DNA from: Akkermansiaceae bacterium
Lineage (GTDB): Bacteria > Verrucomicrobiota > Verrucomicrobiia > Verrucomicrobiales > Akkermansiaceae
Length of the DNA stretch: 39,733 bases
Assembly (NCBI GenBank): GCA_903837825.1
Contig: CAILVZ010000136.1
Span: 1 to 39,733, forward strand
Reading direction: 5' to 3'
Made by a program: the position numbers and the translations under genes. Numbering within the stretch: position 1 is the stretch's first letter; each line of letters begins with the position of its first letter. The notes beneath the pieces were generated by a model, which was not told where the DNA came from, searched no databases, and worked only from the letters and a program-made list of their open reading frames with translations. Shown in pieces: positions 2,208-31,928 of this stretch.

Positions 2208-5200
2208 TTAATGGGATGCGGCGGACTCAAGTTCGATCGACTGAGCAGCAGCCTTGCGCCCGAAAGCAAAGAAGACGGTGGGAGTCACCACCAATCCAAG
2301 CAAAGTGCTAGTGATCAGTCCACCGACGATGACGACCGCTACCGGATGGAGAATTTCCTTACCCGGTTGATCCGCAGCCAGCACGAGCGGAATCAGCCCG
2401 ATCCCTGCCGCGAGCGCCGTCATCAGTACTGGAACCAGCCGCTCTTTGGTACCGCGAATGACCATCTGCTCGGTGAAGCCCTCACCCTCGTGCTGCATGA
2501 GATGCAGGTAATGGGAAATGAGCATGATGCTATTTCTCGCTGCCACCCCTGCCACGGCGATGAAGCCTACGAGCGTGGCGATGCTGATGTTGTTTAACTT
2601 GAAGTAGGTGAACGCCAGGCCTCCGACCAATGCCAAGGGGATATCCCACAAAACCTGAAACGCGAAAAATGGCGTACGGAAATAACCATAAAGCAGGAAC
2701 CAGACCACCAGTAAAATAACCGCAGTGAAGAGCGCGATGCGTCTCGTTGCCTCTTGCTGTGCTTGAAACTCACCCTCAAACTTCACGAAATAGCCCTCGG
2801 GCAATTTCACCCTTTTCGTTACTTCACTTTTAAGACTTTCGACGAGAGTCGAAACATCTCTAACAGATGGTTTAATCGCCAAGGCATAGCGGCGCTGGCT
2901 ATCTTCACGGAAAATCACGTTCGGTCCTTTTGCCTCTCTCGCATCAGCGACGAGCGACAACGGAACATGCTGACCCCCGCTTACCTCGACTGGAATCTGC
3001 GATATTTTCTCCGGTGAATCCCTCCATTCTAACGGCAAGCGGGTGACAAGATTGACCGCACGCTGGCCATCCCGCAATTCTGCGACCTCCTTGCCCCCGA
3101 CGAGGGCAGAAACCTGCTCATTGAGATCCCCAGGTGTGATGCCGTAAGCACGCGCACGCGCGCGATCGACTTCGATCCGCAGTTGCGGGATCGACGACTG
3201 CACATCAAGTTTTGCGTCCTCAAGGCCGGGAATGGTTTTACAGATCGTCTGGATCTCGATGCCAATCCTTTTCAACCCCTCAAGATCTGGGCCGAATACC
3301 TTCACTGCGACGGGAGCTGAGACTCCGCTAAGCATGTGGCCGATCCGGTCCGCCAGTGGCCCGCCCACGACCGCAAAGACCCCAGGAACCGCCTTCAATC
3401 GCTTCGTGATATCCGCAAGGATCACATTGCGATCGCGATCCTTTGTTCCACTTGATGAATCAGCCCTGCGGAAGTCCACATCGAACTCCGCAGTCGAGAC
3501 AGGAACCACGTGATCTCCTCGCTCGGCACGCCCAAGTCGGCGACCAACCTTGCCGACTTCTGGCACGGCGAGGATCTCCTCTTCGACGACATCCGAAATC
3601 CGGTTCATCTCCTCCAACGAAGTGCCGGGCGCAGAAGTAACCGCAACCAGCGCAGTCTCCTCCTTGAACTTGGGAAGGAAATCCTTGCCCATCTGCGGAT
3701 AAAGCGAAATGGCAGCCACCACGATGCTCGCTGCCAGCGCGACTAGTAGATAGGGCTGGCTTAGTCCGAAACGAAGCCAAACATGCTCAAGCAACCACTT
3801 CATGCCACGCACGACAGCACCATCCCTGTGCACATGGCCAACCTCCGGACGAAGCAAGAACGAGCACAGCACCGGAATTGCGGTCAACGAAACCATAAAC
3901 GACGCGACCATGGAGATGATGGTAGCAATAGCGATCGGAGCAAAAAGCTTGCCTTCGACCCCTGTTAGTCCGAGGAGTGGAAGAAACACTAAAATGATGA
4001 GAATCGTCGCATAAAGAATCGAGTTCCTTACCTCCCCAGAGGCGCGACCGATAACGGCAAGTCGAGCATGAGGTCTCTCGAGCGCCGCATTCTCCCTGAG
4101 CCTGCGATAGACATTTTCCACGTCGACGATGGCGTCGTCCACGACCATGCCGATGGCCACCGCAAGTCCTCCAAGCGTCATGGAGTTCACACTGATTCCT
4201 GACCACTTGAAAATTAACATGGTGATTCCAAAGGAGAGCGGCATCGCCATGAGGGTGATGAACGTGGTACGAAAATTTAGGAGGAAGATGAAGATCACAA
4301 TCGTCACCATGATTGCTCCGTCGCGAATCGCTTCCATTAGATTTCCAATTGCGTGGTCGATGAAATCCTTCTGTTGGAAGAGCAGCATGGTTTCCACGCC
4401 TTTCGGAAATGATGGCTGCAGTTCCGCCAATGCCTTGTTAATTTCATCGGTCAGGGCACGGGTATCAAATCCTGGTGCCTTCGTGATCGACATGATCACT
4501 CCGTAGGTTGGCTTCTTTTCTGGGGTTTGGCTGACGGTGGCATCACCACGCATCGGCTCGATCCCCCATGCGACCTTTGCGACATCTCCAATCAAGATTG
4601 GCCGATCATTGGTTTTTTTAATAACCGTGCTAGCGATGTCACCGAGTTGCACCGTCATCGCCAGATTTCGCACCATGATTTCCGTAGTCCCCGAATTGAT
4701 GAATCCGCCAGTGGTGGTCGATGCTGATGCCGATGCCGCATGCTCCAACTCCTCGAGACTCACCCCATGAGCCTGCATCTTGTAGGGATCTGGCTGGATC
4801 TCAATTTGCTTCACGCCGCCCCCCATGTTGAGGATCTCGGCAATGCCCGAGATGCTCTGCAGGCGCCGCTTGATCGTCCAATCAGCGATGGAGCGAACCT
4901 CACTCGGTGGCAGATAGCCCGGCTCGCCCACTTTAATAGTCGACCGAACCCCAACCAACAGGATTTCACCCATCAGCGAGGCGACGGGTGTCATGAATGG
5001 CACCACGCCCGCTGGAAGTTGTTCGCGTACCCCTTGAAGACGTTCTTGGACGAGCGATCTCGCCTTGTATATGTCCATATCCCAGCCGAACTCAGCATAA
5101 ACGAGCGATAGAGACACATCGCTATTCGTTCGAAGACGCGTCAAGCCCGCCACTCCCATGAGTGCACTTTCGATCGGCTGCGTGATGCGCATTTCAACTT

Positions 5201-5381: not shown

Positions 5382-6506
5382 TCAGCAGTCGTTGGGTTGA
5401 GGTTTGGAAGCATTTCGTTTCTTGGCAATCAAGGAGCCGAGGAGCAGTACAAATAAAACACCACTCACATACATCCATGAACCACTGGTGCCGCCATCGG
5501 TATGAACCTTGCCGCCATTTTTTGCCACTGCCATCTCAGCCCTTTTTTCGGAGGTGAGTTCTCCACCATCTGCGGCATGTTCATGTCCATGAGCGGCGTC
5601 AAGGGCCTCCTTAAGCGACACGCTGCCGCCGGCGGCGAAAGAGAGCGAGTAGGCCCCGCGGGTGACCACTTCGTCCGCAGGAAAAAGTCCGTTGACGATC
5701 TCGACCATCCGATCATTCATTGCGCCCACTTGTACCGGCGATTTGATGAAGGTGTTCTCGAGTTCAAAATGTTTGACATAAACGAACCGATTGCTGGGCT
5801 CTCCTTGCAGCGCTGCGCGCGGCACGCTCATCACATTCGCTCGATGGTTAAGCACCATCGCGAACTCCGCACGCATGTTAGCACGCAGCCGCATGCCAGG
5901 ATTTGGCAATTTGAAAATGGCATCGACCGTGCCACTCTCGCGGTCGGCCACGCTGCCGAACCGAATCATTTCGCCATCGACCGATTGCTCGCCAAGCGCG
6001 GGGACATGGATATGTGCTTTGCTGCCGGGCTTGAGCATAGCGGCCTGACTTTCTGGGACGCGGGCGATGGCAAATACCTCAGATAAGTCGGAGATGTCTA
6101 GCAACTCCTTGTCCGGCTCAACTGGCTCCCCGAGGCGAACGTGGGATACGACCACCAATCCGCCGATCGGTGCCATCAACTTAATGCTGGGAGGAGGATT
6201 TCCAGGCTGACGGCTTTCGACAACGACAAGGGCTTGGCCTTTTTCAACCGTCTCGCCTTCCTTGAAATCCAAGCCCATCACCCGGCCTGAAACCCGACTG
6301 CTGACAACAGCATGGCTCTCTGGGATCTCCTCAATTCGCCCAAGGGCAAATGCGGTTTCTTCAAAGTCGGCTTCTTCGACCTCGACGGTTTCTATCCGGA
6401 GATTTTTCACGCCGATTTCGTCGAGGACAATCGTGTTAGATTCAGCGGCTCGACTCACTGAGAACAGCAGAAGAAACCAATAGCAAAAATAGAGTGAATG
6501 TTTCAT
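5382..6506 (-). CDS. RND efflux periplasmic adaptor (membrane fusion protein, CzcB/CusB type)
   Basis: 374 residues starting at ATG 6506 with a signal peptide ending near SVSRAAES. The barrel-sandwich/lipoyl-like halves are visible as VSSRVSGRVMGLDFKEGETV and KLMAPIGGLVVVSHVRLGEPV, followed by beta-barrel segments typical of HlyD/CzcB proteins. It would bridge the RND pump and the TolC-like channel. There is an unusual C-terminal extension: a short His-rich stretch (AAHGHEHAADGG), a Lys/Gly-rich linker, then a single predicted membrane helix (WMYVSGVLFVLLLGSLIA) and a basic tail. Most adaptors of this family lack a C-terminal membrane anchor. It lies 8 bp downstream of the outer membrane protein gene and 3 bp upstream of the pump gene. 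Confidence 0.9.
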   Translation of the reverse strand: MKHSLYFCYWFLLLFSVSRAAESNTIVLDEIGVKNLRIETVEVEEADFEETAFALGRIEEIPESHAVVSSRVSGRVMGLDFKEGETVEKGQALVVVESRQPGNPPPSIKLMAPIGGLVVVSHVRLGEPVEPDKELLDISDLSEVFAIARVPESQAAMLKPGSKAHIHVPALGEQSVDGEMIRFGSVADRESGTVDAIFKLPNPGMRLRANMRAEFAMVLNHRANVMSVPRAALQGEPSNRFVYVKHFELENTFIKSPVQVGAMNDRMVEIVNGLFPADEVVTRGAYSLSFAAGGSVSLKEALDAAHGHEHAADGGELTSEKRAEMAVAKNGGKVHTDGGTSGSWMYVSGVLFVLLLGSLIAKKRNASKPQPNDC

Positions 6507-7747: not shown

Positions 7748-7879
7748 TAATTTGGAAAAGCTGCCGCAAAAACATGCGACAAGGGTAATGATCGAACAAA
7801 ATGCAAGATGGGCACGATAGACCACATCTTGAAGCGAGGGCGCAACTCAATCGCGCGCCGAGTCATCGCAGCGCGATGC

Positions 7880-8230
7880 TTAGATCAATGGTGGCTTTTC
7901 AGACCCCAATACGGGGGCCTCGGGCAGAATCGCTCGGTCATCTTGAACGCCCGAATAGGACGACCCGAGAATCCCGACCTTGCAATCCTGATGATTTTCG
8001 AAGGCGAATGCTACGCACTGCGAACAACAACTCGAATGATGGTGGTGATTCTGCGGGCAACCATCATCTGGATGATGCTCTTCGGGACCAGACGGATCCT
8101 GATGCTCGCTGCAACATGCATGAGCCGCCTTTGAACTGACCTCAGCATGGCTCGTGAACGATGCGAGAACGCGGACATTCAGTCCCGCAAACACGCAAGC
8201 CAACATCAGCCATGCCAAAAATGATTTCAT
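7880..8230 (-). CDS. Small exported His/Cys-rich protein at the head of the efflux operon
   Basis: No named family recognised. ATG 8230 gives 116 residues and places a signal-like hydrophobic segment (MKSFLAWLMLACVFAGLNV) at the N-terminus; the open frame extends upstream to 8269. After the signal comes a dense metal-ligand region with HACC, EEHH, NHHHH and CCSQC within about 40 residues, then an undistinguished tail. It is the first gene of the metal efflux block and so is closest to the promoter region shared with the divergent reductase gene. Binding of metal ions in the periplasm is inferred from composition; similar small His-rich proteins are common beside heavy-metal RND genes. Confidence 0.65.
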   Translation of the reverse strand: MKSFLAWLMLACVFAGLNVRVLASFTSHAEVSSKAAHACCSEHQDPSGPEEHHPDDGCPQNHHHHSSCCSQCVAFAFENHQDCKVGILGSSYSGVQDDRAILPEAPVLGSEKPPLI

Positions 8231-20788: not shown

Positions 20789-20805
20789 TAAAAAATTAAT
20801 TTCGA

Positions 20806-21795
20806 TTAGAAATCGAATTGATCGATGTTATCCTTAGTGAATACAAATGGTTTTCCGAGAACGATGTTATCGCCAACCACGTCGATCTTCCCAAGCTTGC
20901 CCGCGTTGAACTCCTTGGCGCCGGCAACAAGTTCACCTTTCGCGACTGCAGCACCCGCCATCACCGAGAGATAACCGAGTTGCTCGACATTCCAAAGAAT
21001 GACCGCTTGGGTGACGCCCTCTTTGACGTAGGCCTTATTTTCGCTGGGCAATCCCAGTCCAAGCACTTTGACCGCTCCAGCTTTGCCAGCTTGTTTCACG
21101 GCTTCGGCTGCACCGGGGACCGCGGGCGAGCAAACGCCGATGATCGCCTTCAAGTTTGGATAAGCGCTCAAGAGGTTCGTGGCTTCCTGCTGTGCCTTAT
21201 CTTTTTGGTCGTCACAGGGCTTGATGTCCACCAGCTTCATGTTTGGGTACTTTGTGGCATGGCGCTCCTTAATGTACTTGATCCACTCGTTGAGGTTAGA
21301 GGCTGTTAGAGTTCCCGTAATGATGGCGAACTCACCTTCTCCACCTGTTAGGCTTGCAGCACTGTCCATCAATTGCTCACCGATTCCCTGAGCCGTTGCC
21401 TGATTGACGAAGAACGAGCGAGCGTCCGTGTTGGCATCCGCATCATAGGTGACCACTTTGATTCCAGCAGCTTGTGCCTTTTTCAATGCCGTCGAAATCG
21501 AATCTTTGTTTTCGCATGCTGCGGCGATCACGTCGACACCATCGGTGATCCAGTTCTCGACGATTTCATTTTGTTTGGCGGGGTCTGAGTTGATCGGGCC
21601 ATCAAATTTCAGCTCAGCATTGAGTTCAGCGGCAGCGGCCCGCGCACCTTTTTCGCAAGTGACGAAGTACTGGTTGCCTTTGCTCTTCGGAAGCAGGGCG
21701 ATGGTGAGCTTGCTGCTAGAATGCGACTTGCTGCAAGAAATGAAAGGAAGCGTGGCGATGAGCGCGACGGTGGCGGCGAGGGTTTTGCGTTTCAT
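20806..21795 (-). CDS. rhaS: Sugar ABC transporter substrate-binding lipoprotein, probable rhamnose binding (RhaS-like)
   Basis: 329 residues, type I periplasmic binding protein (ribose/LsrB class). The leader KTLAATVALIATLPFISC ends in a lipobox, so the protein is likely lipid-anchored. Two-lobe fold segments are LTIALLPKSKGNQYFVTCEKG, VDVIAAACENKDSISTALKKA, KVVTYDADANTDARSFFVNQ, and LKAIIGVCSPAVPGAAEAV. It resembles the rhizobial RhaS rhamnose-binding protein. The ATG overlaps no upstream gene, but the permease stop at 21792 overlaps this start by 4 bp (ATGA). Sugar specificity is inferred from the rhaA and rhamnosidase neighbours. Confidence 0.85.
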   Translation of the reverse strand: MKRKTLAATVALIATLPFISCSKSHSSSKLTIALLPKSKGNQYFVTCEKGARAAAAELNAELKFDGPINSDPAKQNEIVENWITDGVDVIAAACENKDSISTALKKAQAAGIKVVTYDADANTDARSFFVNQATAQGIGEQLMDSAASLTGGEGEFAIITGTLTASNLNEWIKYIKERHATKYPNMKLVDIKPCDDQKDKAQQEATNLLSAYPNLKAIIGVCSPAVPGAAEAVKQAGKAGAVKVLGLGLPSENKAYVKEGVTQAVILWNVEQLGYLSVMAGAAVAKGELVAGAKEFNAGKLGKIDVVGDNIVLGKPFVFTKDNIDQFDF

Positions 21796-22844
21796 GAGTT
21801 TGCTGGGTTAGGAGAGGTGTTTGCAAAAGACTGCTTGCGGGCGCGGCGGACGGCCAGCGTTTTTGTCAATGCGCCTAGGGAAAGTGCGGTGAGCAGGAGC
21901 AATCCGGTGAGAAGTCCTGAGAGCTCTCGGGCGACGCTAGCCACGGGCTGATCAAAAATTCGGTAGTCGGAAATTCGGGTAAGACCGTTGTTGAGAATCG
22001 CGAGAGCGACCCAACCCAGAAGCGTGCCGGCCACCGTTCCGGAGCCGCCAAAGATGCTGACGCCCCCTAGCACCACTGCCGTAATCGCCAGCAATTCATA
22101 GCCAATCCCAGCATTCGCACGAGCCTCGCCGAGCCTCGCCACGAGAACGACTGCGGCAATTCCCGCTGCGGCCCCTGCGATCATGTAAGCCAGGCTCGTG
22201 TTGCGCGCGACGGGAATCCCCGCATACCGAGCCCCATCCGCCGCGTAGCCAATGGCGCGGAACGAACGGCCAAAGGTCGTCCGGTGCACCAGCAACCCAA
22301 TGCCAGCCGCCACCCCGATAAAAATCCACACCTGAGCTGGAAGGCCCGCAACATCAGAATTCCCTAACGCCAGAAACGAGGGCGGGAAGCCAGAATACGA
22401 TTCCGCACCATGGGTAAGCGCCTCCGCCAAACCTCGGAAAAGCGAAAATGTCCCCAAGGTCACGATCAGCGGAGGCAAGTTCAAGCGAGTGATCAATACT
22501 GCGTTAAAACCACCGCCCAGCGCACCGATCCCGACCGCGGCCAAACTCGCCAGCCACGGATCCATCCCCAGCCGGTTGACCATCATGCCAAACAACACTG
22601 CGCACAGCCCCATCATCGAACCCACCGACAAATCGATGCCTCCTGTTAGAATCACTGGGGTCATCGCCACCGCGAGGAGACCGATTTCCACCGAGTGACG
22701 GAATACGTTGGAAACGTTGCGCCCCACGAGGAAATTGCGGCCTAACAACTGGAAGAGCACGACCTCCACCAAGATCGCGAGCACCAGCACAACCTCATGA
22801 CGGGCGAGCAATGATTTGAAAGAAATTGACCTTGAACTAGGCAT
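21792..22844 (-). CDS. rhaQ: Sugar ABC transporter permease (RhaQ-like)
   Basis: 350 residues with about ten hydrophobic segments of the BPD_transp_2 (ribose/AraH) type. Family marks include VILTGGIDLSVGSMMGLCAVLFG, LPPLIVTLGTFSLFRGLAEALT, and YELLAITAVVLGGVSIFGGSGT, the cytoplasmic EAA-like coupling region for the ATPase. It forms the channel with the second permease. The start is 12 bp after the stop of that permease gene and its own stop overlaps the binding-protein start. Confidence 0.85.
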   Translation of the reverse strand: MPSSRSISFKSLLARHEVVLVLAILVEVVLFQLLGRNFLVGRNVSNVFRHSVEIGLLAVAMTPVILTGGIDLSVGSMMGLCAVLFGMMVNRLGMDPWLASLAAVGIGALGGGFNAVLITRLNLPPLIVTLGTFSLFRGLAEALTHGAESYSGFPPSFLALGNSDVAGLPAQVWIFIGVAAGIGLLVHRTTFGRSFRAIGYAADGARYAGIPVARNTSLAYMIAGAAAGIAAVVLVARLGEARANAGIGYELLAITAVVLGGVSIFGGSGTVAGTLLGWVALAILNNGLTRISDYRIFDQPVASVARELSGLLTGLLLLTALSLGALTKTLAVRRARKQSFANTSPNPANS

Positions 22845-22856
22845 GGGGTTCGTCGG

Positions 22857-23786
22857 TTAGAATTGAGATTTGCGGCTGCGAAGTCCATCTGCCACCACAG
22901 CGAGAAGAATCACCAAACCCTGAATCGCCTTCTCCCAATAGGGCGGCTCGTGAAAATGGGTGAGCGCGGGATTCACGTTTGCGAGAAGTAGCATCCCTAA
23001 TAAAACACCCCACATCGTGCCTCGCCCCCCGCTGATCGCCACACCCCCAACCACTGCTGCGGCAATGGTTTTAAGATCAAGCCCATCGCCACAATTGGGT
23101 TGGACCTGTGGCGACTGCACCAAGTTGAGCACTGCCGCAAGTCCAGCGAGAAGCCCCATCAGAACGAACACACCGAAGGTGGTACGCTTGGGATCAATTC
23201 CGGCCAATCGCGCTGCCTCGGCATCGGTCCCAGTCGCGTAAATTTGTCGGCCACCCATCAGGTTTTTCATAGCCCATGCGGCACCCACGACCAAGGTGAG
23301 GGCAATGGACACCACGACCATTTGCCCCACTTGCTGGCTGAGCCCAAACCATTGAATGCCGTTCGGTAGCGCAAGCAAGCGCCCCTGCTGCCATAACCGC
23401 AGCGCCTCCTGCCACGTGACCATTGTCGCTAGAGTGACGACAATGCTGGGGAGTCCAAGGTAAGCAACCAGCACTCCATTGACCGCACCCATGAGAGCGC
23501 CTACCCCCAAGGCAGCGAAGACCGCCACGCCTAACGGAAATCCCGCAGAAGCAGTGACACCCGCGACGATCGCGCACATGCTGAACTGAGCGCCGATCGA
23601 GATGTCAATCTGTCGGGAAATGATTACCAATGCGATTCCTACGGCAGCCACCAATGCAGGCATCTGCGAGGTGAGCCGTGAACCAAGCGGTTGGGCTTGG
23701 AAAAAGTGCGGTGCAAAAACTGCTAGAGATAGGAGCAACAACGCCAAAGCGATCGCAACCGTGAGTTCACGAAAATACTTGTTCAT
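22857..23786 (-). CDS. rhaP: Sugar ABC transporter permease (RhaP-like)
   Basis: 309 residues, also of the ribose-type permease family: VIISRQIDISIGAQFSMCAIVAG, LPSIVVTLATMVTWQEALRLW, and DLKTIAAAVVGGVAISGGRGT, the conserved coupling loop. It contains a short Q-P-N-C insertion (SPQVQPNCGDG) before that loop. The ATG at 23786 overlaps the stop of the ATPase gene by 4 bp, so translation is coupled. A heterodimeric permease pair is the pattern of rhizobial RhaP/RhaQ. Confidence 0.85.
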   Translation of the reverse strand: MNKYFRELTVAIALALLLLSLAVFAPHFFQAQPLGSRLTSQMPALVAAVGIALVIISRQIDISIGAQFSMCAIVAGVTASAGFPLGVAVFAALGVGALMGAVNGVLVAYLGLPSIVVTLATMVTWQEALRLWQQGRLLALPNGIQWFGLSQQVGQMVVVSIALTLVVGAAWAMKNLMGGRQIYATGTDAEAARLAGIDPKRTTFGVFVLMGLLAGLAAVLNLVQSPQVQPNCGDGLDLKTIAAAVVGGVAISGGRGTMWGVLLGMLLLANVNPALTHFHEPPYWEKAIQGLVILLAVVADGLRSRKSQF

Positions 23787-25297
23787 GAGGCAACCTCGTT
23801 TCTGTTGGTTCCGAGAGCGGCAGCCATCACCGAGTGAGCGTCTGCATCCTGCTTCTCGAGGATTTCTACAAGCTTGCCATTGCGCATCACGGCAACGCGG
23901 TCACTCATTCCCAAGACCTCTGGAAGATCGCTGGAAATCATCAACACGGCGAGACCCTCACGCGCCAGGCCGCGGATGATCTTGTGAATTTCACTTTTCG
24001 CTCCGACATCGACCCCCTGCGTCGGTTCATCGAGAATGAGCAACTTCGGCTGAGTTGCGAGCCACCGGGCCACACTCACTTTTTGCTGGTTGCCTCCGCT
24101 TAAGCTACCGCCGGGCGCGTCTGGGGAAAATGCCTTAATGCCCAAATCTCGGATGAAATCCTTCGCCAATTGATGTTCGGCGGCAAGACGTAGCCAGCTG
24201 TTAGGAAAAAACCGCGGATGACTCGCCATCGTCATATTTTGAGCGATCGGCATCTCGAGGATCACTCCGTGGCGACGGCGATCTTCCGGCACATATGCGA
24301 TCCCCCGTGCAATTGCCTCACGCGGGGACCTAATGTGCAGCACTTCTCCATTCAAAATGATTTCACCCGAATCTGCCGGAGTGATTCCAAAAAGGATTCG
24401 AGCCAATTCCGTGCGGCCAGCACCCACCAGTCCAGCCATCCCAACAATTTCGCCCGCTCTAATTTCCAAGTTCACACCGCTGACGCCGCTAGCAGCACAT
24501 CCCAACTCTCTCAGCTCCAGCACCGCTGCGCCAGGCGCTCCTTCGGATGGCGGATAGATCGATGACACTTCCCGCCCCACCATCAGTTTGATCATCGCCG
24601 ACTCCGTGAGAGAATCGACTGCATAAGTGCCAACGCTCTCACCATCGCGTAGCACGGTCACACGGTCCGCCAACGCAAAAATCTCCTCGAGGCGATGGGA
24701 AATATAAATCACACCCACTCCATTTTTCCGGAGGTCGCAAACCACCTTGAAAAGCAACTGCTGCTCCTTTTGAGTGAGCGAGGCGGTCGGCTCATCCATC
24801 ACCACGATGCGTGCGCCGGACCCCAGCGCACACGCGATTTCCACCAACTGCTGCTCGGGCATCGAAAGCGAGCGAACCACGGCATCTGGCGAGATCTCCG
24901 CACCGATTTGCTGAAGGAGCTCGACCGCGTGCTTGCGTTGGGCGGCCCAGCGAACCCGAGAGAAGAGCCCTGATTTTTTTAAGCGAAGCCCGATATTCTC
25001 CGAAACGGTTAGATCAGGAAAAAGCGCTGGCTGTTGGTAAATGCAGGCAATCCCAAGCTCGCGTGCCTTGGAAGGTGTTAGATGAGAAATCTCCACACCC
25101 GCGACCCTCATGCTTCCGCCATCTGGCTGATGCGCGCCCGTGATCGTTTTGATGAGGGTGGATTTCCCTGCACCATTCTCTCCCAAGAGTGCGTGCACCT
25201 CCCCCGGATTCAATTCAAACGACACCCCTTTCAACGCACGGACCGCGCCGAACGATTTGCGAATTTCTGAAAGTTGAAGTAATGTCTGCAAACCCAT
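23783..25297 (-). CDS. rhaT: Sugar ABC transporter ATP-binding protein with two nucleotide-binding domains (RhaT-like)
   Basis: About 504 residues from ATG 25297, which lies 20 bp after the rhaA stop; a TTG at 25321 overlapping rhaA is possible but weaker. Domain 1 has Walker A GENGAGKST, signature LSMPEQQLVEIA and Walker B IVVMDEPTASLT. Domain 2 has a degenerate Walker A (GLVGAGRTELARILFG) but an intact signature LSGGNQQKVSVARWL and Walker B LLILDEPTQGVDVG. This tandem arrangement is standard for ribose/rhamnose/autoinducer-2 class importers. It powers the two downstream permeases. The symbol rhaT here follows the rhizobial ABC nomenclature, not the E. coli symporter. Confidence 0.88.
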   Translation of the reverse strand: MGLQTLLQLSEIRKSFGAVRALKGVSFELNPGEVHALLGENGAGKSTLIKTITGAHQPDGGSMRVAGVEISHLTPSKARELGIACIYQQPALFPDLTVSENIGLRLKKSGLFSRVRWAAQRKHAVELLQQIGAEISPDAVVRSLSMPEQQLVEIACALGSGARIVVMDEPTASLTQKEQQLLFKVVCDLRKNGVGVIYISHRLEEIFALADRVTVLRDGESVGTYAVDSLTESAMIKLMVGREVSSIYPPSEGAPGAAVLELRELGCAASGVSGVNLEIRAGEIVGMAGLVGAGRTELARILFGITPADSGEIILNGEVLHIRSPREAIARGIAYVPEDRRRHGVILEMPIAQNMTMASHPRFFPNSWLRLAAEHQLAKDFIRDLGIKAFSPDAPGGSLSGGNQQKVSVARWLATQPKLLILDEPTQGVDVGAKSEIHKIIRGLAREGLAVLMISSDLPEVLGMSDRVAVMRNGKLVEILEKQDADAHSVMAAALGTNRNEVAS

Positions 25298-25317
25298 GGG
25301 TTGGTTGGTGATTCTAA

Positions 25318-26586
25318 TCAAACTCGTTTGCTCAAGACCGCATTTTCATACTGTTTCACCTCCGACAACCAAGCCGTGCCGGCAGGGACATTTTGCGATT
25401 CACAATAAGCATCCCAAACCGCACCCCATGGCAAGCTCTTGGTTTCTTCCATCAACGCGAGTCGCGCGGTGTAGTCGCCCGATTTCTCTGCATCGCGGAG
25501 GGCGACTGGCTCTAACAATGCCATGAGAAGCGCCTTGAGCGTGTTGCGGGTTCCAATCGTCCACGCCGCGATCCGGTTGATGCTGGCGTCGAAGAAGTCG
25601 AGTCCGATGTGAGTGCGGGAAAGCAATTGGTTGCGCACCAATTCCGCAGCGATCGATTTTAGGGCATCGTCGAGGGTCACGACGTGGTCGCTGTCCCACC
25701 GGACACCGCGGCTGACGTGCAGAAGGATTTCTGGCACATACATCAACGCGGACGTCAACTTGTCGGCAATGCCTTCCGTCGGATGGAAATGACCGGCGTC
25801 GAGGCAGAGGAGTTTATGGTTCTTGATTGCGTAGCCCATGTAGAACTCGTGCGAACCGACCACGTAGCTTTCACTGCCGATGCCGAACAATTTGCACTCC
25901 ACCGCATCGAGGTGGTACTTCGGGTTGAGTTTTTTGGCAAACACCTTGTCTAGTGAGTCGGATAGGCGTTGGCGCGGCGCGAGCCGATCCACGGGGGTGT
26001 CTTTGTAGCCATCAGGAATCCAGACGTTCGTAACCGTCGGTGACCCAAGTGCCTTGCCCATCGACGCGCCGATTTCACGGGAGGCGATGCAATGCTCGAT
26101 CCAGAAATCCCGAATGGATTTTTTCGGATGGGAAAGCGTGAATCCGTCGGCAGCTTTCGGGTGCGCAAAGCAGGTCGGATTGAAATCCATGCCCATGCCA
26201 TTCGCCTTTGCCCAGTCGATCCAGCCTTTGAAATGCTCCGGCCTGATCTCATTGCGGTCGACTTTTTTGCCGCCAAACTCGCCATAAAATGCGTGGAGAT
26301 TGAGGCGATGCTTGCCAGGGATGAGCGAGAGCGCCTTGTCCAAGTCTGCGCGGAGTTCATCGGGGGTGCGAGCCTTGCCGGGGTAGTTGCCGGTCACGGC
26401 GATCCCACCGCTCAAGCCTTCTCCCGAGTTTTCGAATCCGCCCACATCGTCGCCCTGCCAGCAGTGGAGAGAAATCGGGATTCTCGCTAGCTTGGCCATT
26501 GCGGCGTCCGTATCCACGCCGAGTTCAGCGTATCGGGATTGGGCAAGCTTGTAAGATTGGGCGATGGATTTGGAAGATTTGGCCAT
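25318..26586 (-). CDS. rhaA: L-rhamnose isomerase
   Basis: 422 residues, close to the 419 of E. coli RhaA, and clearly collinear: [116 protein letters not shown], and [15 protein letters not shown]. The metal-ligand Glu/Asp/His residues in those segments are kept. It converts L-rhamnose to L-rhamnulose in the cytoplasm. It is the first gene of the block, 97 bp from the divergent AraC regulator. The confident identity of this gene is what fixes the transporter's likely sugar. Confidence 0.96.
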
Positions 26587-26683: not shown

Positions 26684-27553
26684 ATGAAACGCATTTTAAA
26701 AATCGACGAGTGGTTTCACCCAGACGGCTTCCCCATCAGCGTTGAGCGCAGGGAGCCGCAGGAGCTTTTCGGGCCGCATTCGCACGAATTTGCCGAGTTG
26801 GTGATCGTGACGGGCGGCAAGTGCTTGCACGTGACGGGGCAAGATTCTTGGGAGCTCACCGCTGGGGACGTCTTCGTCATCGCTGGCACGCGGGAACATG
26901 AGTATCGCGATCTCGTCGATCTAAGGCTCGTCAACATCCTCTACCAGCCCAACCAATTGAAAATGGCCCTGCTAGACCTGCCATCTGTGGCGGGATACCA
27001 CGCGCTTTTTACCCTAGAGCCCTCGTGGAAAAAACGCCAATCCAGCAAAGGGCGTCTGCATTTGAATGCCAAAGAGTTGGCTCAAGTCGTGGAGGTTGCA
27101 GAGCGTTTGGAAGTCGAGCTGAACGCGCGTGAGCCCGGATTCGGATTCATGGCCATGGCCTCATTCATGCAGATGGTCGGGCTACTTTCACGCTGCTACG
27201 GGCGCAACCCATCCCCGGACGTGAAGGCGCTTCTGCGCATCGGCGAGGCGCTATCCCACCTCGAGCGCAACATCCACCGAGATGTCAATCTGGAGGAATT
27301 GGCCAAGACTGCGCACATGTCACCGCGCAGTTTTTTACGAGTTTTCCATTCCGCCACAGGGACTTCTCCGCTCGCATGGGTGATCGAGCAACGGATCAAC
27401 CGCGCCTGCAGCCTGCTCCGCCATACCGAACGCCGCGTCACCGAGATCGCCTTCGACGTCGGGTTCAACGATAGTAATTATTTCACCCGCCAATTCCATA
27501 AATTGACGGGGGTTTCGCCACGTGACTATCGTCTGCGCCGTGGCATCACCTGA
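26684..27553 (+). CDS. AraC family regulator, probable rhamnose-responsive (RhaS/RhaR-like)
   Basis: 289 residues. The N-terminal cupin-like sensor shows HSHEFAELVIVTGGKCLHVTG and GDVFVIAGTREHEYRDLVDL, as in the E. coli RhaS/RhaR arabinose-binding-like domain. The C-terminal AraC DNA-binding domain has two helix-turn-helix units: VNLEELAKTAHMSPRSFLRVF and RVTEIAFDVGFNDSNYFTRQF, ending KLTGVSPRDYR. It is divergent from rhaA with a shared 97-bp region, so it probably activates the rhamnose block when the sugar is present. Ligand is inferred from context. Confidence 0.9.
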   Translation: MKRILKIDEWFHPDGFPISVERREPQELFGPHSHEFAELVIVTGGKCLHVTGQDSWELTAGDVFVIAGTREHEYRDLVDLRLVNILYQPNQLKMALLDLPSVAGYHALFTLEPSWKKRQSSKGRLHLNAKELAQVVEVAERLEVELNAREPGFGFMAMASFMQMVGLLSRCYGRNPSPDVKALLRIGEALSHLERNIHRDVNLEELAKTAHMSPRSFLRVFHSATGTSPLAWVIEQRINRACSLLRHTERRVTEIAFDVGFNDSNYFTRQFHKLTGVSPRDYRLRRGIT

Positions 27554-27626
27554 ATTTCTCGCACAGAAACTGCGGGAGCTTCACTTGACCTCAAGCCATG
27601 ATGGGTGCAACTTCCCCCACTCAAAA

Positions 27627-28256
27627 GTGAAAACAAGTTACTACCTCTCCATCCCGCTTTTTGCACTTCTAGCGATCTGCCTCCCTTCGTGCGCCCCTCC
27701 CATTCCTGGGCAGTCCGACTACCTCAAAGGCGTCGGCGGATCAATCCACCAACCCGTGTCCGGTGGCCCGCATCATCCAGCTCCAGCGATCCCCGACGAC
27801 GTCTCCTACTGGGATGGCGACGGTGTGGGTGGCAACCCGCTGATCCGGATCAATCGTGGCCAGCAAAAAGCGTTCTTCTACAAAGGCGGAGTGCTTGTCG
27901 GCATTTCACGGATTTCCAGCGGCAAGGAAGACCACGGAACCCCAGCGGGAAATTACAAGATCATCGAAAAAGACAAAAACCACATCTCATCCGCCTACGG
28001 TGTTTTTAAAAGCAAATCGACCGGCATGACGACCAACGACAACGTGGACATCCGCACCGACAAGATCCCTCCAGGCCAAATCTTCTACAACGCGCCCATG
28101 CCGAATTTCATGCGGATCACCAACGGTGGGATTGGCATGCACACGGGCTACCTGCCCGGCTACGCGGCATCCCACGGCTGCATCCGAATGCCGCACCCGA
28201 TGTCGACCAAGTTTTTTGAAAACGTCCAACTCGGCACACCGGTGATCATCGAGTGA
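27627..28256 (+). CDS. L,D-transpeptidase (YkuD) lipoprotein
   Basis: 209 residues starting at GTG 27627, chosen because it begins a lipoprotein signal (KTSYYLSIPLFALLAICLPSC) with the lipobox Cys; upstream codons overlap the end of the AraC gene and look non-coding, and no ATG is in frame. The YkuD domain includes NPLIRINRGQQKAFFYKGG, SSGKEDHGTPAGNYKI and the catalytic motif YAASHGCIRMPHPM (Cys nucleophile and His). Such enzymes make 3-3 peptidoglycan cross-links or attach proteins to the wall. The stop overlaps the rhodanese start by 4 bp (GTGA), so the two are coupled. Confidence 0.88.
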   Translation: MKTSYYLSIPLFALLAICLPSCAPPIPGQSDYLKGVGGSIHQPVSGGPHHPAPAIPDDVSYWDGDGVGGNPLIRINRGQQKAFFYKGGVLVGISRISSGKEDHGTPAGNYKIIEKDKNHISSAYGVFKSKSTGMTTNDNVDIRTDKIPPGQIFYNAPMPNFMRITNGGIGMHTGYLPGYAASHGCIRMPHPMSTKFFENVQLGTPVIIE

Positions 28257-28621
28257 GCGAAGAAAACTCACTCATCCCAAACGCTGCGTCCACCTTGGAG
28301 ATCAGCCCCACAGCGGTCGCGTCGTGGATCCATCTCCCGCATGCGCAACGGCCAAGACTCATCGATTGCCGCGAGGCCGAGGAGTTGGCGATTTGCCAGA
28401 TCCACGGCAATGAATGGATTCCGCTCGGCGACTTTCCCAGCACCGGGCCCGAGCGATGCGCCGACGCCTCTCTGGGGGTGGTCGTTTACTGCCACCACGG
28501 GATGCGCTCACTTCGCGCAGCAATGATCCTCCGATCGCGTGGCATCGAAAACGCATTTTCCATGGCCGGCGGGATCGACGCCTGGTCACGCTTCATCGAT
28601 CCTGCCGTGCCACGCTATTGA
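28253..28621 (+). CDS. Single-domain rhodanese-like protein
   Basis: 122 residues from GTG 28253, overlapping the L,D-transpeptidase stop. Fold marks are PRLIDCREAEELAICQIHG, the active loop YCHHGMRS with catalytic Cys80, and the end FSMAGGIDAWSRFIDPAVPRY, common in bacterial rhodaneses. It may move sulfane sulfur in the cytoplasm; substrate unknown. Its last 29 bp are also readable on the opposite strand as the C-terminal codons of a cutA remnant, and a second copy of its 3' part lies at 30322-30417. Confidence 0.9.
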   Translation: MSEENSLIPNAASTLEISPTAVASWIHLPHAQRPRLIDCREAEELAICQIHGNEWIPLGDFPSTGPERCADASLGVVVYCHHGMRSLRAAMILRSRGIENAFSMAGGIDAWSRFIDPAVPRY

Positions 28622-28636
28622 GCAACCAAGCACGAT
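28427..28636. repeat. Left copy of duplicated rhodanese/cutA tail junction
   Basis: Two blocks match the region 30322-30417. Block 1, 28427-28469, matches 30322-30364 at about 37 of 43 positions. Block 2, 28577-28636, matches 30358-30417 at about 55 of 60, including 22 identical bases around the rhodanese stop. The 114 bp between the blocks are absent from the right copy; both edges carry GACGCCT, so the deletion likely arose by recombination or slippage between these 7-bp repeats. Counts were made by eye. Confidence 0.8.
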
Positions 28637-28670
28637 GAGCCTCGTCTCCCGCGGCAATCCCATTTGAGTA
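28593..28670 (-). pseudogene. cutA C-terminal remnant (overlaps rhodanese tail)
   Basis: Read on the minus strand, 28593 to about 28664 gives SNGIAAGDEAHRAWLLNSVARQDR then TGA at 28593-28595, closely matching the end of the intact CutA nearby (AVAEPYRAWLLNSVARQVR). Shared codons differ mainly at synonymous positions. Slightly further upstream, EVINVV may correspond to the EVPEII of CutA, running under the first codons of the peptidase gene. There is no upstream CutA body, so this is a broken copy; its upstream limit is uncertain. Confidence 0.55.
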
Positions 28671-28680
28671 AACGACATTA

Positions 28681-30180
28681 ATGACTTCCATCCTCCGATA
28701 TCCCACGCTCGCTTCTTTCATCTTCATTTCAGCCTCCACCAACACGATGTTGGCGGACGATGCCGACAGCCCCGCGCGCGCCGCTTATCCCCAGCCGTTT
28801 TCCCGACCTCATTCGATGGGAGACAATTATGACACCTGGCGCGATGCGACAGGCCCTGATGTCGGCGGGACACCCGTCGACATCAGCCGTTTGCCCTCGC
28901 GCGTCGATAACTCCACCCGCCCGCAGTTCCCTCCGATCTACAAACAGAAGGGAGGTGCCTGTGGCCAGTTCACCGCGGTTGCCTCGATCTTCACCTACGA
29001 AATGAACGTGCTGAGTGGCACTGAGGCCAGAACCACCGCCACGCAATTTCCCGCCGACTTTTCATGGAACATGTGCAATGCCGCCGATAGCGCCCAAGGA
29101 TCGGAGGCGCATCATGGTTGGGAAGTGGCCAAGCAGATTGGAATTCCCACCGTCAAATCCTACGGCCGCGTGGAAGGAGACAAGGACAAGATCGGCTCGT
29201 GGGCCAACGGTTACCCCATCTGGCGCGAAGCGATGGAATATCGCGTCGCTGGCTATCGCTACACCCCGACCGCCACCATCTCACAAATCAACGAAGCCCG
29301 CGGCTGGCTCTTCGATCGCAACCAACCCAAACCCGGCAAGGAATCCATCGGCGGATTGCTGGCGCTGGACGGACGGATGGGCGAACTCAAAACGATCACG
29401 AGGACGATTCCCGAAGGAGATTATCTAGCAGGCGAGGACCTATGGATCCATTGGTGCCCCAGCGGTTTCGGCCACGGCATCACATGTGTGGGATACGATG
29501 ACCAGGTCGGATTCGATGTGAACGGCGATGGCAAGGTGACCAACGACAGCGACATCAACGGCGATGGTAAAGTCACCCTCGCTGACCACGAGCGCGGTGC
29601 CTTCATCGTGCTCAACTCATGGGGCAAGACCTGGTCGAAAGACGGCAAGATTTACCTGCTCTACAGCGCGATGGTCGATCCCACTTGGGAACGCGGAAAC
29701 TACCTCGGACGGATCGAGGTTTGCCGAAACATTCCCCGACTCACTTTGAAACTGAATCTCGCCTGCAACAAGCGCTCGGACTTGCGGGTGACCATCGGCA
29801 TCGCCGGCAAGAAAGACGCCAAGAAACCCGAACACGAGCTCGCTCCAGAGGTCCTCAACGGCTGGCCGCTCTTCGGTAAGAATCGGAAGGGCAACGTCGG
29901 CGAAGTCCCTCTCGCCGGACCTAATAATGACAGCCCGCTCGAAATCGGCATCGATCTCACGCCATTGCTCAACAAGTTGGGCCCTGAGTCTGCTGGTGAT
30001 GGCCGCCTTTTCCTAAGCTTCAGCTGCGCGGAAAAAGGCGAGACCACCGGCGTGCTCCACGCCTGTGCCATCCGACGCTACGATGATCAAGGCGCCTTTG
30101 TCCGAGATTCAGTCGTGGAAGTTCAAGATGGAACCTTTGGTAAAAAAGCACTCACGCTCGAAACAATCCTGCCCCCCTAA
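28681..30180 (+). CDS. Secreted papain-like (C1) peptidase with embedded dockerin-type calcium loops
   Basis: 499 residues from ATG 28681 with a signal-like N-terminus ending near MLADDA. The catalytic triad is readable: GGACGQFTAVASIFTYEM with Cys94, SGFGHGITCVGYDD with His265, and IVLNSWGKTW with Asn312. Between His and Asn (residues 279-302) sit two back-to-back 12-residue loops, DVNGDGKVTNDS and DINGDGKVTLAD, of the DxNxDGxV dockerin/EF-hand type. Residues 340-499 form a second, beta-rich region without a recognised family. It would act outside the cytoplasm, possibly calcium-dependent. The usual CWAF after the nucleophile is replaced by CGQF, as in some divergent bacterial C1 enzymes, so activity is likely but not proven. 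It is flanked by the duplicated rhodanese/cutA junctions. Confidence 0.85.
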   Translation: MTSILRYPTLASFIFISASTNTMLADDADSPARAAYPQPFSRPHSMGDNYDTWRDATGPDVGGTPVDISRLPSRVDNSTRPQFPPIYKQKGGACGQFTAVASIFTYEMNVLSGTEARTTATQFPADFSWNMCNAADSAQGSEAHHGWEVAKQIGIPTVKSYGRVEGDKDKIGSWANGYPIWREAMEYRVAGYRYTPTATISQINEARGWLFDRNQPKPGKESIGGLLALDGRMGELKTITRTIPEGDYLAGEDLWIHWCPSGFGHGITCVGYDDQVGFDVNGDGKVTNDSDINGDGKVTLADHERGAFIVLNSWGKTWSKDGKIYLLYSAMVDPTWERGNYLGRIEVCRNIPRLTLKLNLACNKRSDLRVTIGIAGKKDAKKPEHELAPEVLNGWPLFGKNRKGNVGEVPLAGPNNDSPLEIGIDLTPLLNKLGPESAGDGRLFLSFSCAEKGETTGVLHACAIRRYDDQGAFVRDSVVEVQDGTFGKKALTLETILPP

Positions 30181-30321
30181 CGCCGACGACTGACCTCGAT
30201 CAGACACCCGCTCTCCCCGTTCGCTGCCCAGCCGCTGCGGCGACCCGCAATTCAATCTCACGTACAAATAGAAAGCTTTCTTGTATCCTAACGAGTTATA
30301 AGGCGAGGAGCGGGGAGAGGA
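30181..30321. other. Intergenic region with palindromes after the peptidase gene
   Basis: Contains a perfect 12-bp palindrome AGAAAGCTTTCT (30269-30280) inside TACA...TGTA flanks (30263-30285), a GCCG-CTG-CGGC hairpin near 30231-30241, and a 9-bp inverted pair CTCTCCCCG (30211-30219) / CGGGGAGAG (30311-30319). No T-run follows, so none is a clear terminator; the 12-bp palindrome could be an operator or chance. Confidence 0.3.
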
Positions 30322-30402
30322 GGCGACCATCCCAGCACTGGGCCTGGGCGGTGCGCCGACGCCTGGTCACCCATCATCGAACCTGCCGTGCCACGCTATT
30401 GA
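30322..30402 (+). pseudogene. Rhodanese 3' remnant with in-frame internal deletion
   Basis: In the rhodanese frame this reads GDHPSTGPGRCADAW-SPIIEPAVPRY and stops at TGA 30400-30402, matching GDFPSTGPERCADA fused to DAWSRFIDPAVPRY of the intact gene at 28253-28621. The 38 codons holding the catalytic Cys loop are missing, and no start or N-terminal half is present. The 3' part overlaps the end of the intact cutA on the other strand by 29 bp, the same overlap as in the left copy. Confidence 0.75.
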
Positions 30403-30417
30403 GTAACCAAGCGCGAT
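30322..30417. repeat. Right copy of duplicated rhodanese/cutA tail junction
   Basis: Direct repeat of 28427-28469 plus 28577-28636, at offsets of 1895 and 1781 bp, with the 114-bp deletion between. The repeat extends 15 bp past the rhodanese stop, so it is a DNA duplication and not only shared protein motifs. Confidence 0.8.
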
Positions 30418-30703
30418 AGGGTTCAGCCACCGCCGCCGCCTCGAGCGCGATGATTTCCGGGACCTCGTATGGGTGAAGCTCCGCTAGGGCTTTCTGAAAC
30501 TGGGGAAACGCCTCCGCAGACGTTTTGAAAACCGCCAGCACCTCAGCCGATTGCGCCACCCTGCCTTCCCAGCGGTAAATCGACTCGATGCAGGGGACAA
30601 GATTGACACAAGCCGCGAGTTGCATTTCGACGAGGACTGTGCCAATTTGTCGCGCCCGCTCGGAATCGGGGAAGGTGCATAGGACTAAAAATACGTGATT
30701 CAT
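30374..30703 (-). CDS. cutA: Divalent-cation tolerance protein CutA
   Basis: 109 residues from ATG 30703, supported by GGGAG (30709-30713) five bases upstream; the frame stays open to 31033 but that part is antisense to the kinase gene. CutA1 marks are FLVLCTFPDSERARQIG, LAACVNLVPCIESIYRWEG, and the conserved LHPYEVPEIIAL. CutA forms trimers resembling PII proteins; copper tolerance was the first reported role but its function remains unclear. Its last ten codons lie on the antisense of the rhodanese remnant, and its ATG shares the tetramer CATG (30701-30704) with the ATG of the divergent histidine kinase. Confidence 0.93.
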   Translation of the reverse strand: MNHVFLVLCTFPDSERARQIGTVLVEMQLAACVNLVPCIESIYRWEGRVAQSAEVLAVFKTSAEAFPQFQKALAELHPYEVPEIIALEAAAVAEPYRAWLLNSVARQVR

Positions 30704-31928
30704 GGCTACTCCCGGCAACCGAAAGCCTAAACCCAGCAAGCTCAAAGTGAAATCCGGTTTTTTGGAAAAACTGGTGGCAAGGTTGGATCGTGTGGTTCCC
30801 GGCGATGTCCAGCAGATCGTCACCCGCCTGATTCGCGAGAAGGGATTTCTCGAAAAGGTCTTCGAGGCCCTGCACGAGGGGGTCATCATTTTGGACCCGC
30901 AAGGGGTCATCGGGTTCCTCAACCACGCCGCCTGCCAGTTTTTCGGACTCGATCCAGATCGCGCGACCGGTGAATTCATTTCCTCCCAAATCCGCGGCCT
31001 CGACTGGATGCACCTTGGCAAGCCCGGCCGCACGATCAGCCGCGACCTCGAGGTCTTTTACCCAGAGAACCGCTACCTCAACTTCTACCTCGCCCCGATC
31101 GATGGGACCGAAGGAGACCACGAACCACTCGGCTACGTGATGCTCGTCCGAGACCTCACCAGCACGCGCGCAGAAGCAGAAGAAACCCTCGAGTCCGAAC
31201 GCCTGAACTCCCTGACCCTCTTGGCCGCTGGAGTCGCCCACGAAATCGGCAACCCGCTGAATTCGCTCGATATCCACCTCCAGTTGTTAGCCCGCAAACT
31301 GCGCAAACTGTCATCCACCGAGCGTGAACCCCTTGAGAAAAACCTCACCACCGCCCGGGAGGAAATCCAACGCCTCGATCTGATCCTCAAGCAGTTTCTC
31401 AATGCCGTCCGCCCCACCGCACCCCATCGCGAACGCAAGGACCTACACGCCATCCTCCACGACACCCTGCGCCTGCTTGAACCTGAACTCGAAGCGCGCA
31501 AGGTCGCCATCGAACTCGACCTCGCAAGCTCCCTCCCGCCCGCCTTCGTCGACCCCGTCCAATTTCAACAAGTGTTCTACAACCTGATCCGCAATGCCTT
31601 CCAAGCGATCCCATCCGATCAAGGCCTCGTCACGATCCGCACCCGCGTGAACGACTTTGAGTACATCATTTCCATTGAAGACAACGGAACTGGCATTTCG
31701 CCCGAGCACATGGGCGCACTCTTCGAGCCCTACCGCACCACCAAACCCTCGGGCTCCGGACTCGGCCTGCTCATCGTCAGACGCATCATCCGCGAACACG
31801 GCGGCGCCATCGCCATCGAAAGCGAGGCCAACCAAGGCACTCGGGTCATCATTCATTTCCCACACACCGAACGCCCCGTCCGACTGCTAAGCGCTCCCGA
31901 GCCGCCCCCTGTCATCGATGTGATCTAA
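30702..31928 (+). CDS. PAS-containing sensor histidine kinase (NtrB-like)
   Basis: 408 residues with no membrane segment, so probably cytoplasmic. After a basic N-terminus, a PAS domain spans about residues 50-155 (EALHEGVIILDPQGVIGFLNHAACQFFGLD). The dimerisation/phosphoacceptor H-box is LLAAGVAHEIGNPLNSLD with His180. The ATPase domain has an N-box around FYNLIRNAFQAI, G1 EDNGTGIS, F-box LFEPYRTTK and G2 GSGLGLLIV. It pairs with the NtrC-type regulator 26 bp downstream. ATG 30702 overlaps the cutA start; GTG 30747 is an alternative start that would remove the overlap. Signal unknown. Confidence 0.93.
   Translation: MATPGNRKPKPSKLKVKSGFLEKLVARLDRVVPGDVQQIVTRLIREKGFLEKVFEALHEGVIILDPQGVIGFLNHAACQFFGLDPDRATGEFISSQIRGLDWMHLGKPGRTISRDLEVFYPENRYLNFYLAPIDGTEGDHEPLGYVMLVRDLTSTRAEAEETLESERLNSLTLLAAGVAHEIGNPLNSLDIHLQLLARKLRKLSSTEREPLEKNLTTAREEIQRLDLILKQFLNAVRPTAPHRERKDLHAILHDTLRLLEPELEARKVAIELDLASSLPPAFVDPVQFQQVFYNLIRNAFQAIPSDQGLVTIRTRVNDFEYIISIEDNGTGISPEHMGALFEPYRTTKPSGSGLGLLIVRRIIREHGGAIAIESEANQGTRVIIHFPHTERPVRLLSAPEPPPVIDVI

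Follow-up and report, generated by a model that had tools for sequence, protein, structure and literature searches.

Genes and repeats at the rhodanese-cutA junction

The window analysed here, i.e. the whole stretch of 39,733 nucleotides (contig CAILVZ010000136.1, assembly GCA_903837825.1), comes from a lineage that is an Akkermansiaceae genus. Within it, an L,D-transpeptidase gene is followed by genes for a rhodanese, a peptidase, CutA (on the opposite strand), a PAS/histidine kinase and an NtrC-type regulator. The features are as follows.

27522-28256, plus strand: L,D-transpeptidase (YkuD) gene, conserved upstream neighbour of rhodanese (Pfam YkuD 2e-22)
28253-28621, plus strand: intact rhodanese-like gene, left copy (Pfam Rhodanese 2.4e-12)
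28391-28621, plus strand: rhodanese part of the duplicated block, left copy, codon 47 to stop; 5' limit taken from the right-copy fragments of the sister genomes G079 (28391) and G076 (28393)
28593-28635, minus strand: C-terminal CutA remnant, left copy, about 14 residues, overlapping the rhodanese stop by 29 bp
28636-28680, plus strand: leader of the peptidase cassette, with the left insertion edge at TGAG (28636-28639)
28681-30180, plus strand: papain-like peptidase gene of patchy distribution
30248-30326, no strand assigned: right-border sequence common to G076 (79% over 78 bp, G076:C197 789-712)
30322-30402, plus strand: right-copy rhodanese remnant in two segments, brought together by an in-frame deletion of 114 bp at CGACGCCT (30357-30364)
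30374-30703, minus strand: intact cutA gene, right copy (Pfam CutA1 2.4e-33)
30702-31928, plus strand: PAS/histidine kinase gene, conserved neighbour beyond cutA (Pfam HATPase_c 1e-25)

The repeat search and self-BLAST recovered two direct matches across the insert: positions 28576-28636 and 30357-30417 are identical at 56 of 61 bases (92%, E 6e-18), and 28427-28469 matches 30322-30364 at 37 of 43 (86%, E 4e-7). They were the sole repeats at E<1e-6 in the self-BLAST of the 39.7-kb window, and the longest exact stretch common to the two copies is 22 bp. The best 61-bp match did not exceed 36/61 in 500 Markov shuffles or 35/61 among 268 other stretches of the window, so the similarity is far above chance. 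A preliminary description of this DNA had reported the first match at 28577-28636 and 30358-30417 (about 55 of 60 bases) and the second at about 37 of 43, both in agreement with our alignment. The 29-bp stop overlap that it gave for both copies is borne out by the stop coordinates, which are 28619-28621 (left) and 30400-30402 (right) for rhodanese, and 28593 (left) and 30374 (right) for the low base of the CutA-frame stop.

Both matches belong to one collinear copy that is interrupted by a deletion on the right. The right copy lacks 114 bp, in frame, between two 8-bp CGACGCCT repeats (28462 and 28576), so that its rhodanese remnant still reads through to its own stop (GDHPSTGPGRCADA-WSPIIEPAVPRY, followed by the stop). 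The earlier account of the right copy as an intact CutA with a rhodanese tail thus holds (30374-30703 and 30322-30402, respectively). On the left, rhodanese is indeed intact, but the proposed CutA tail is CutA for only about 14 residues, up to 28635: similarity to the right copy ends at about 28636, and 28636-28680 is peptidase leader DNA also present upstream of the peptidase in G076, which places the residues GIAAGDE outside CutA.

It should be added that the start codons of cutA (minus strand) and of the PAS kinase gene (plus strand) overlap in CATG (30701-30704), and that the two genes abut or overlap alike in several relatives; at least one promoter would therefore have to sit within the other gene. 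Further upstream, about 5.7 kb (window 20802-26515) comprising most of a xylose-isomerase-like gene is absent from G079 and G076, where an N-terminal remnant is all that is left of the gene.

The right-border sequence opens with a dispersed motif, AATTCAAT(T/C)TC..ACAAATAGAA. This short intergenic motif (AATTCAATTTCCC..ACAAATAGAA) is located at gene borders in the window (30248-30274), at G000:C196:32354 and at several places in G076; 0-9 near-exact copies were found per genome searched, beside unrelated genes, and the motif had no match in Rfam. As a short dispersed intergenic sequence with no Rfam match, it was not retained as a mobile element, and an integron attC site was rejected, since the edge of the cassette is not as expected for one and no integrase was observed.

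The peptidase is probably secreted. Its Peptidase_C1 match (E 0.026, 15.0 bits) is below the Pfam gathering cut-off of 20.7, a profile search aligned it with procaricain at E 0.089, and the Cys94, His265 and Asn312 motifs are invariant in four homologues; the protein is therefore papain-like by motif only. A calcium-binding (dockerin/EF-hand-like) loop repeat was detected by repeat search at 29514-29605, between the His and Asn motifs (Dockerin match 0.11). The gene is present in 8 of the 73 genus genomes, in some as decayed fragments. In G076 it stands directly at the stop of a gamma-glutamylcyclotransferase-like (GGCT-like) gene, a locus that is empty in G000 (the genome of the window) and in G079. 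Homology of the window and G076 peptidase copies begins at the same base, 28636, at TGAG, and the leader matches G076:C240, behind the stop of the GGCT-like gene, at 95% over 43 bp. Since the same left edge is found behind a different gene, the peptidase arrived separately and is a later arrival joined at TGAG. The preliminary description had left it to be either gained or left between the copies; the former stands and the latter does not.

The empty site and the sister genomes

Rhodanese orthologues were found in 34 of the 73 genus genomes, with 53-88% identity. Five relatives (G013, G034, G003, G001 and G089; rhodanese identity about 63-68%) carry rhodanese and cutA once, with the exact 29-bp convergent overlap and no insert, and the order transpeptidase-rhodanese-cutA-kinase is the same in relatives. 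Other genomes, too, have rhodanese adjoining cutA. This exact junction in five genomes makes the empty pair ancestral, as the preliminary description had supposed, and the window insert derived.

The sister genomes G076 and G079 keep an intact rhodanese gene (87-88% identity) without an intact cutA. In G076 the rhodanese is followed by a CutA remnant from about codon 79, a sulfatase, a phosphate-binding-like protein, restriction-modification genes and a rhodanese fragment, which starts at 28393 and is fused to a mid-CutA piece. A second fragment, on another contig and again starting at 28393, is joined to the 5' end of cutA and adjoins the kinase gene. The corresponding fragment of G079 starts at 28391, with the same fusion and the same neighbour; a rhodanese-tail copy in that genome adjoins the same phosphate-binding gene that G076 carries. 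Cargo therefore differs among the three genomes: the peptidase in the window, the genes listed above in G076, and a phosphate-binding-like protein and PhoD in G079. The inserts of G076 and G079 extend past the ends of their contigs, so that no single contig contains both borders.

Right copies thus start within rhodanese at codon 47-48 in G079 and twice in G076, while that of the window starts at 28427, after further deletion. The sequence preceding this limit in G079 and G076 has no rhodanese similarity. Rhodanese codons 1-46 were found in no right copy, and CutA before about codon 79 in no left copy, of the three sister genomes, where decay could hide both. By this comparison, the recoverable duplicated block extends from rhodanese codon 47 to CutA codon ~79, or about 298 bp. 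The right-copy fragments share mostly 82-92% identity with the rhodaneses of G000, G076 and G079 alike, as compared with mostly 74-80% for outgroups; this near-equidistance, measured over short pieces with few sites, indicates that the duplication predates the split of the three genomes. Furthermore, 78 bp of border sequence are common to the right copy of the window and G076, and the join at 30326 probably reflects a second deletion, between GGCGA repeats.

Repeats were also observed around cargo in the sister genomes. In G079 a 149-bp repeat encloses 4 kb right behind rhodanese, and in G076 repeats of 109-303 bp surround single genes. On G076:C197 (locus L100), three direct copies of a 100-300-bp element (4080-4185, 5974-6265 and 7829-8131) flank a phosphate-binding-like gene and a sulfatase one by one.

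Gene turnover downstream of rhodanese

The interval between transpeptidase and rhodanese is at most 60 bp in 33 of the 34 genomes and opened in one. On the other side, the distance from rhodanese to kinase is at most 433 bp in 16/34; in 16 of the 32 testable genomes (those with more than 2 kb downstream of rhodanese, or otherwise giving an answer) it is greater, or the two genes do not occur together in the DNA examined, with differing cargo. Different genes are thus located between the same conserved genes in relatives, the pattern of a gene-turnover hotspot.

Further rhodanese copies were found in this position. In G078, a DUF3160 gene separates rhodanese from a 131-bp copy 3.1 kb downstream (88%, with the genome's own gene as best match), and G012 has a 200-bp copy at 86%, 5.1 kb downstream. 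The duplicated piece varies by lineage, being codon 47 onward in G000, G076 and G079, codons 32-75 in G078 and the 3' half in G012. Across 888 kb surrounding rhodanese at 56 loci, all spaced direct pairs longer than 60 bp (identity at least 78%) lay 0-8 kb downstream of rhodanese. A plasmid search with the locus gave no match.

The minimal mobile elements of Neisseria are also known for differing cargo between the same conserved genes, with no mobile element recognised. In many species, hotspots without recognisable mobile elements show frequent homologous recombination in the flanking core genes (Oliveira et al. 2017, PMC5635113). Our locus is alike in its varied cargo between the same conserved genes, and no mobile element was recognised among the ORFs read in G000, G076, G079 and G078; however, the flanking double crossover proposed for those hotspots needs no duplicated junction, and here the junction is duplicated.

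Origin of the insert

We consider the structure in the window to be an eroded relic of a gene insertion that duplicated its target, with a probability of roughly two in three (0.66). The insert is flanked by a direct repeat of sequence that is single in the empty site, and a direct target duplication with one partner intact on each side is the expected product when a circular molecule bearing part of the target recombines by a single crossover. Here, a circular or recircularised fragment with a piece of the junction would have entered by one RecA crossover, giving the duplicated junction, after which further recombination and deletion may have turned the cargo over. The right copy has lost 114 bp at CGACGCCT and, in all likelihood at GGCGA, a second piece; the peptidase came later, joining at TGAG.

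In E. coli lacZ, recircularised linear DNA produced target duplications of 109-950 bp by single crossover in the clones sequenced (PMC3240628). Such integration (Campbell-type, or insertion-duplication) and the present insert have in common an insert flanked by direct target duplication, a target left intact on one side and the size class, with about 298 bp here. In contrast, the case in the window is natural, old and eroded by microhomology deletions, and its mechanism is one that we infer. Counting against single-crossover insertion, no donor circle was seen, and the similar-sized insertions in G077 and G071 are without duplication. The same pattern would result if the block had first been duplicated in tandem and the insertions had come separately afterwards.

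The preliminary description favoured a duplication of the rhodanese-cutA pair with one gene lost from each copy. On this view the whole pair would have been duplicated in tandem, the left cutA and the right rhodanese would have degenerated, and other genes would have entered between the copies. An intact rhodanese on the left, an intact cutA on the right and a remnant of the partner in each copy agree with this, as does the left CutA remnant of G076, reaching to codon ~79. It is nevertheless unlikely: the right remnants of G079 and G076 share their starting point at codon 47-48 with no rhodanese similarity before it, the adjacent tandem state was seen in none of the 34 genomes with rhodanese, and the remnants do not cover the whole of each lost gene. 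Duplication of the junction itself is upheld, but not that of the whole pair with reciprocal loss, given right copies that begin at codon 47-48 and a left CutA part of codon ~79 at most; reciprocal loss of full gene copies is not needed. The other possibility named there, in which a long duplication flanks an insertion, is the better fit.

Genomic islands at gene 3' ends use tyrosine integrases and, as here, have direct repeats of the gene's 3' part flanking the cargo. The rhodanese 3' end could accordingly be an attachment site of which islands carry a copy, and the insert edges of G000 and G079, which fall no more than about 20 bp beyond the rhodanese stop, together with the rhodanese-tail copy bordering the phosphate-binding cassette in G079, would suit such site-specific integration. 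We regard it as very improbable, because no integrase or transposase was recognised among the ORFs read in G000, G076, G079 and G078 (the sister inserts leaving their contigs), and the duplicated piece, which reaches about 300 bp, varies by lineage and in G078 (codons 32-75) is not the 3' end; no fixed attachment core was found across the independent insertions. Least credible is that the repeat is a dispersed one with no relation to rhodanese or cutA, or that it is an artefact of assembly. A short dispersed motif is present at 30248-30274, but the repeated block consists of rhodanese/cutA coding sequence and does not recur elsewhere in its own genome. Against an artefact stand the longest exact match of 22 bp between the copies and the like structure in independent assemblies of other species.

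The locus is a natural, well-resolved case of known processes and a readable trace of foreign-gene entry without a recognised mobile element, in which the empty site, the duplicated junction, its erosion and the cargo turnover are all visible by comparing related genomes. Moreover, it illustrates that paired gene remnants around an insert do not imply whole-gene duplication. It is a rather speculative idea that the junction copies serve as home-made recombination anchors, cassettes with one copy being excised as circles and reinserted by homologous recombination; that this would amount to integron-like gene exchange without an integrase in this Akkermansiaceae lineage is likewise doubtful. If junction copies were reused in this way, integrase-free hotspots would gain a testable mechanism.

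Spaced direct repeats were counted beyond the locus as well, with 5 direct and 0 inverted in 295 kb of G079 and 12 direct and 4 inverted in 400 kb of the closed genome G077. Since these counts also include domain repeats, paralogues and dispersed repeats, a genome-wide excess of direct repeats is not claimed. Single examples include a 112-bp direct repeat (96%) around 8.2 kb in G079 (L164, G079:C5 1613-1724/9986-10097), which is the 3' end of a comM/yifB-like gene. Small toxin-antitoxin-like gene pairs are enclosed by direct repeats of 57 bp in G087 (L134, G087:C92 6215-6271/6916-6972) and of 73 bp in G076 (L101, G076:C240 11094-11166/11891-11963), one of these pairs adjoining a yidC-like gene.
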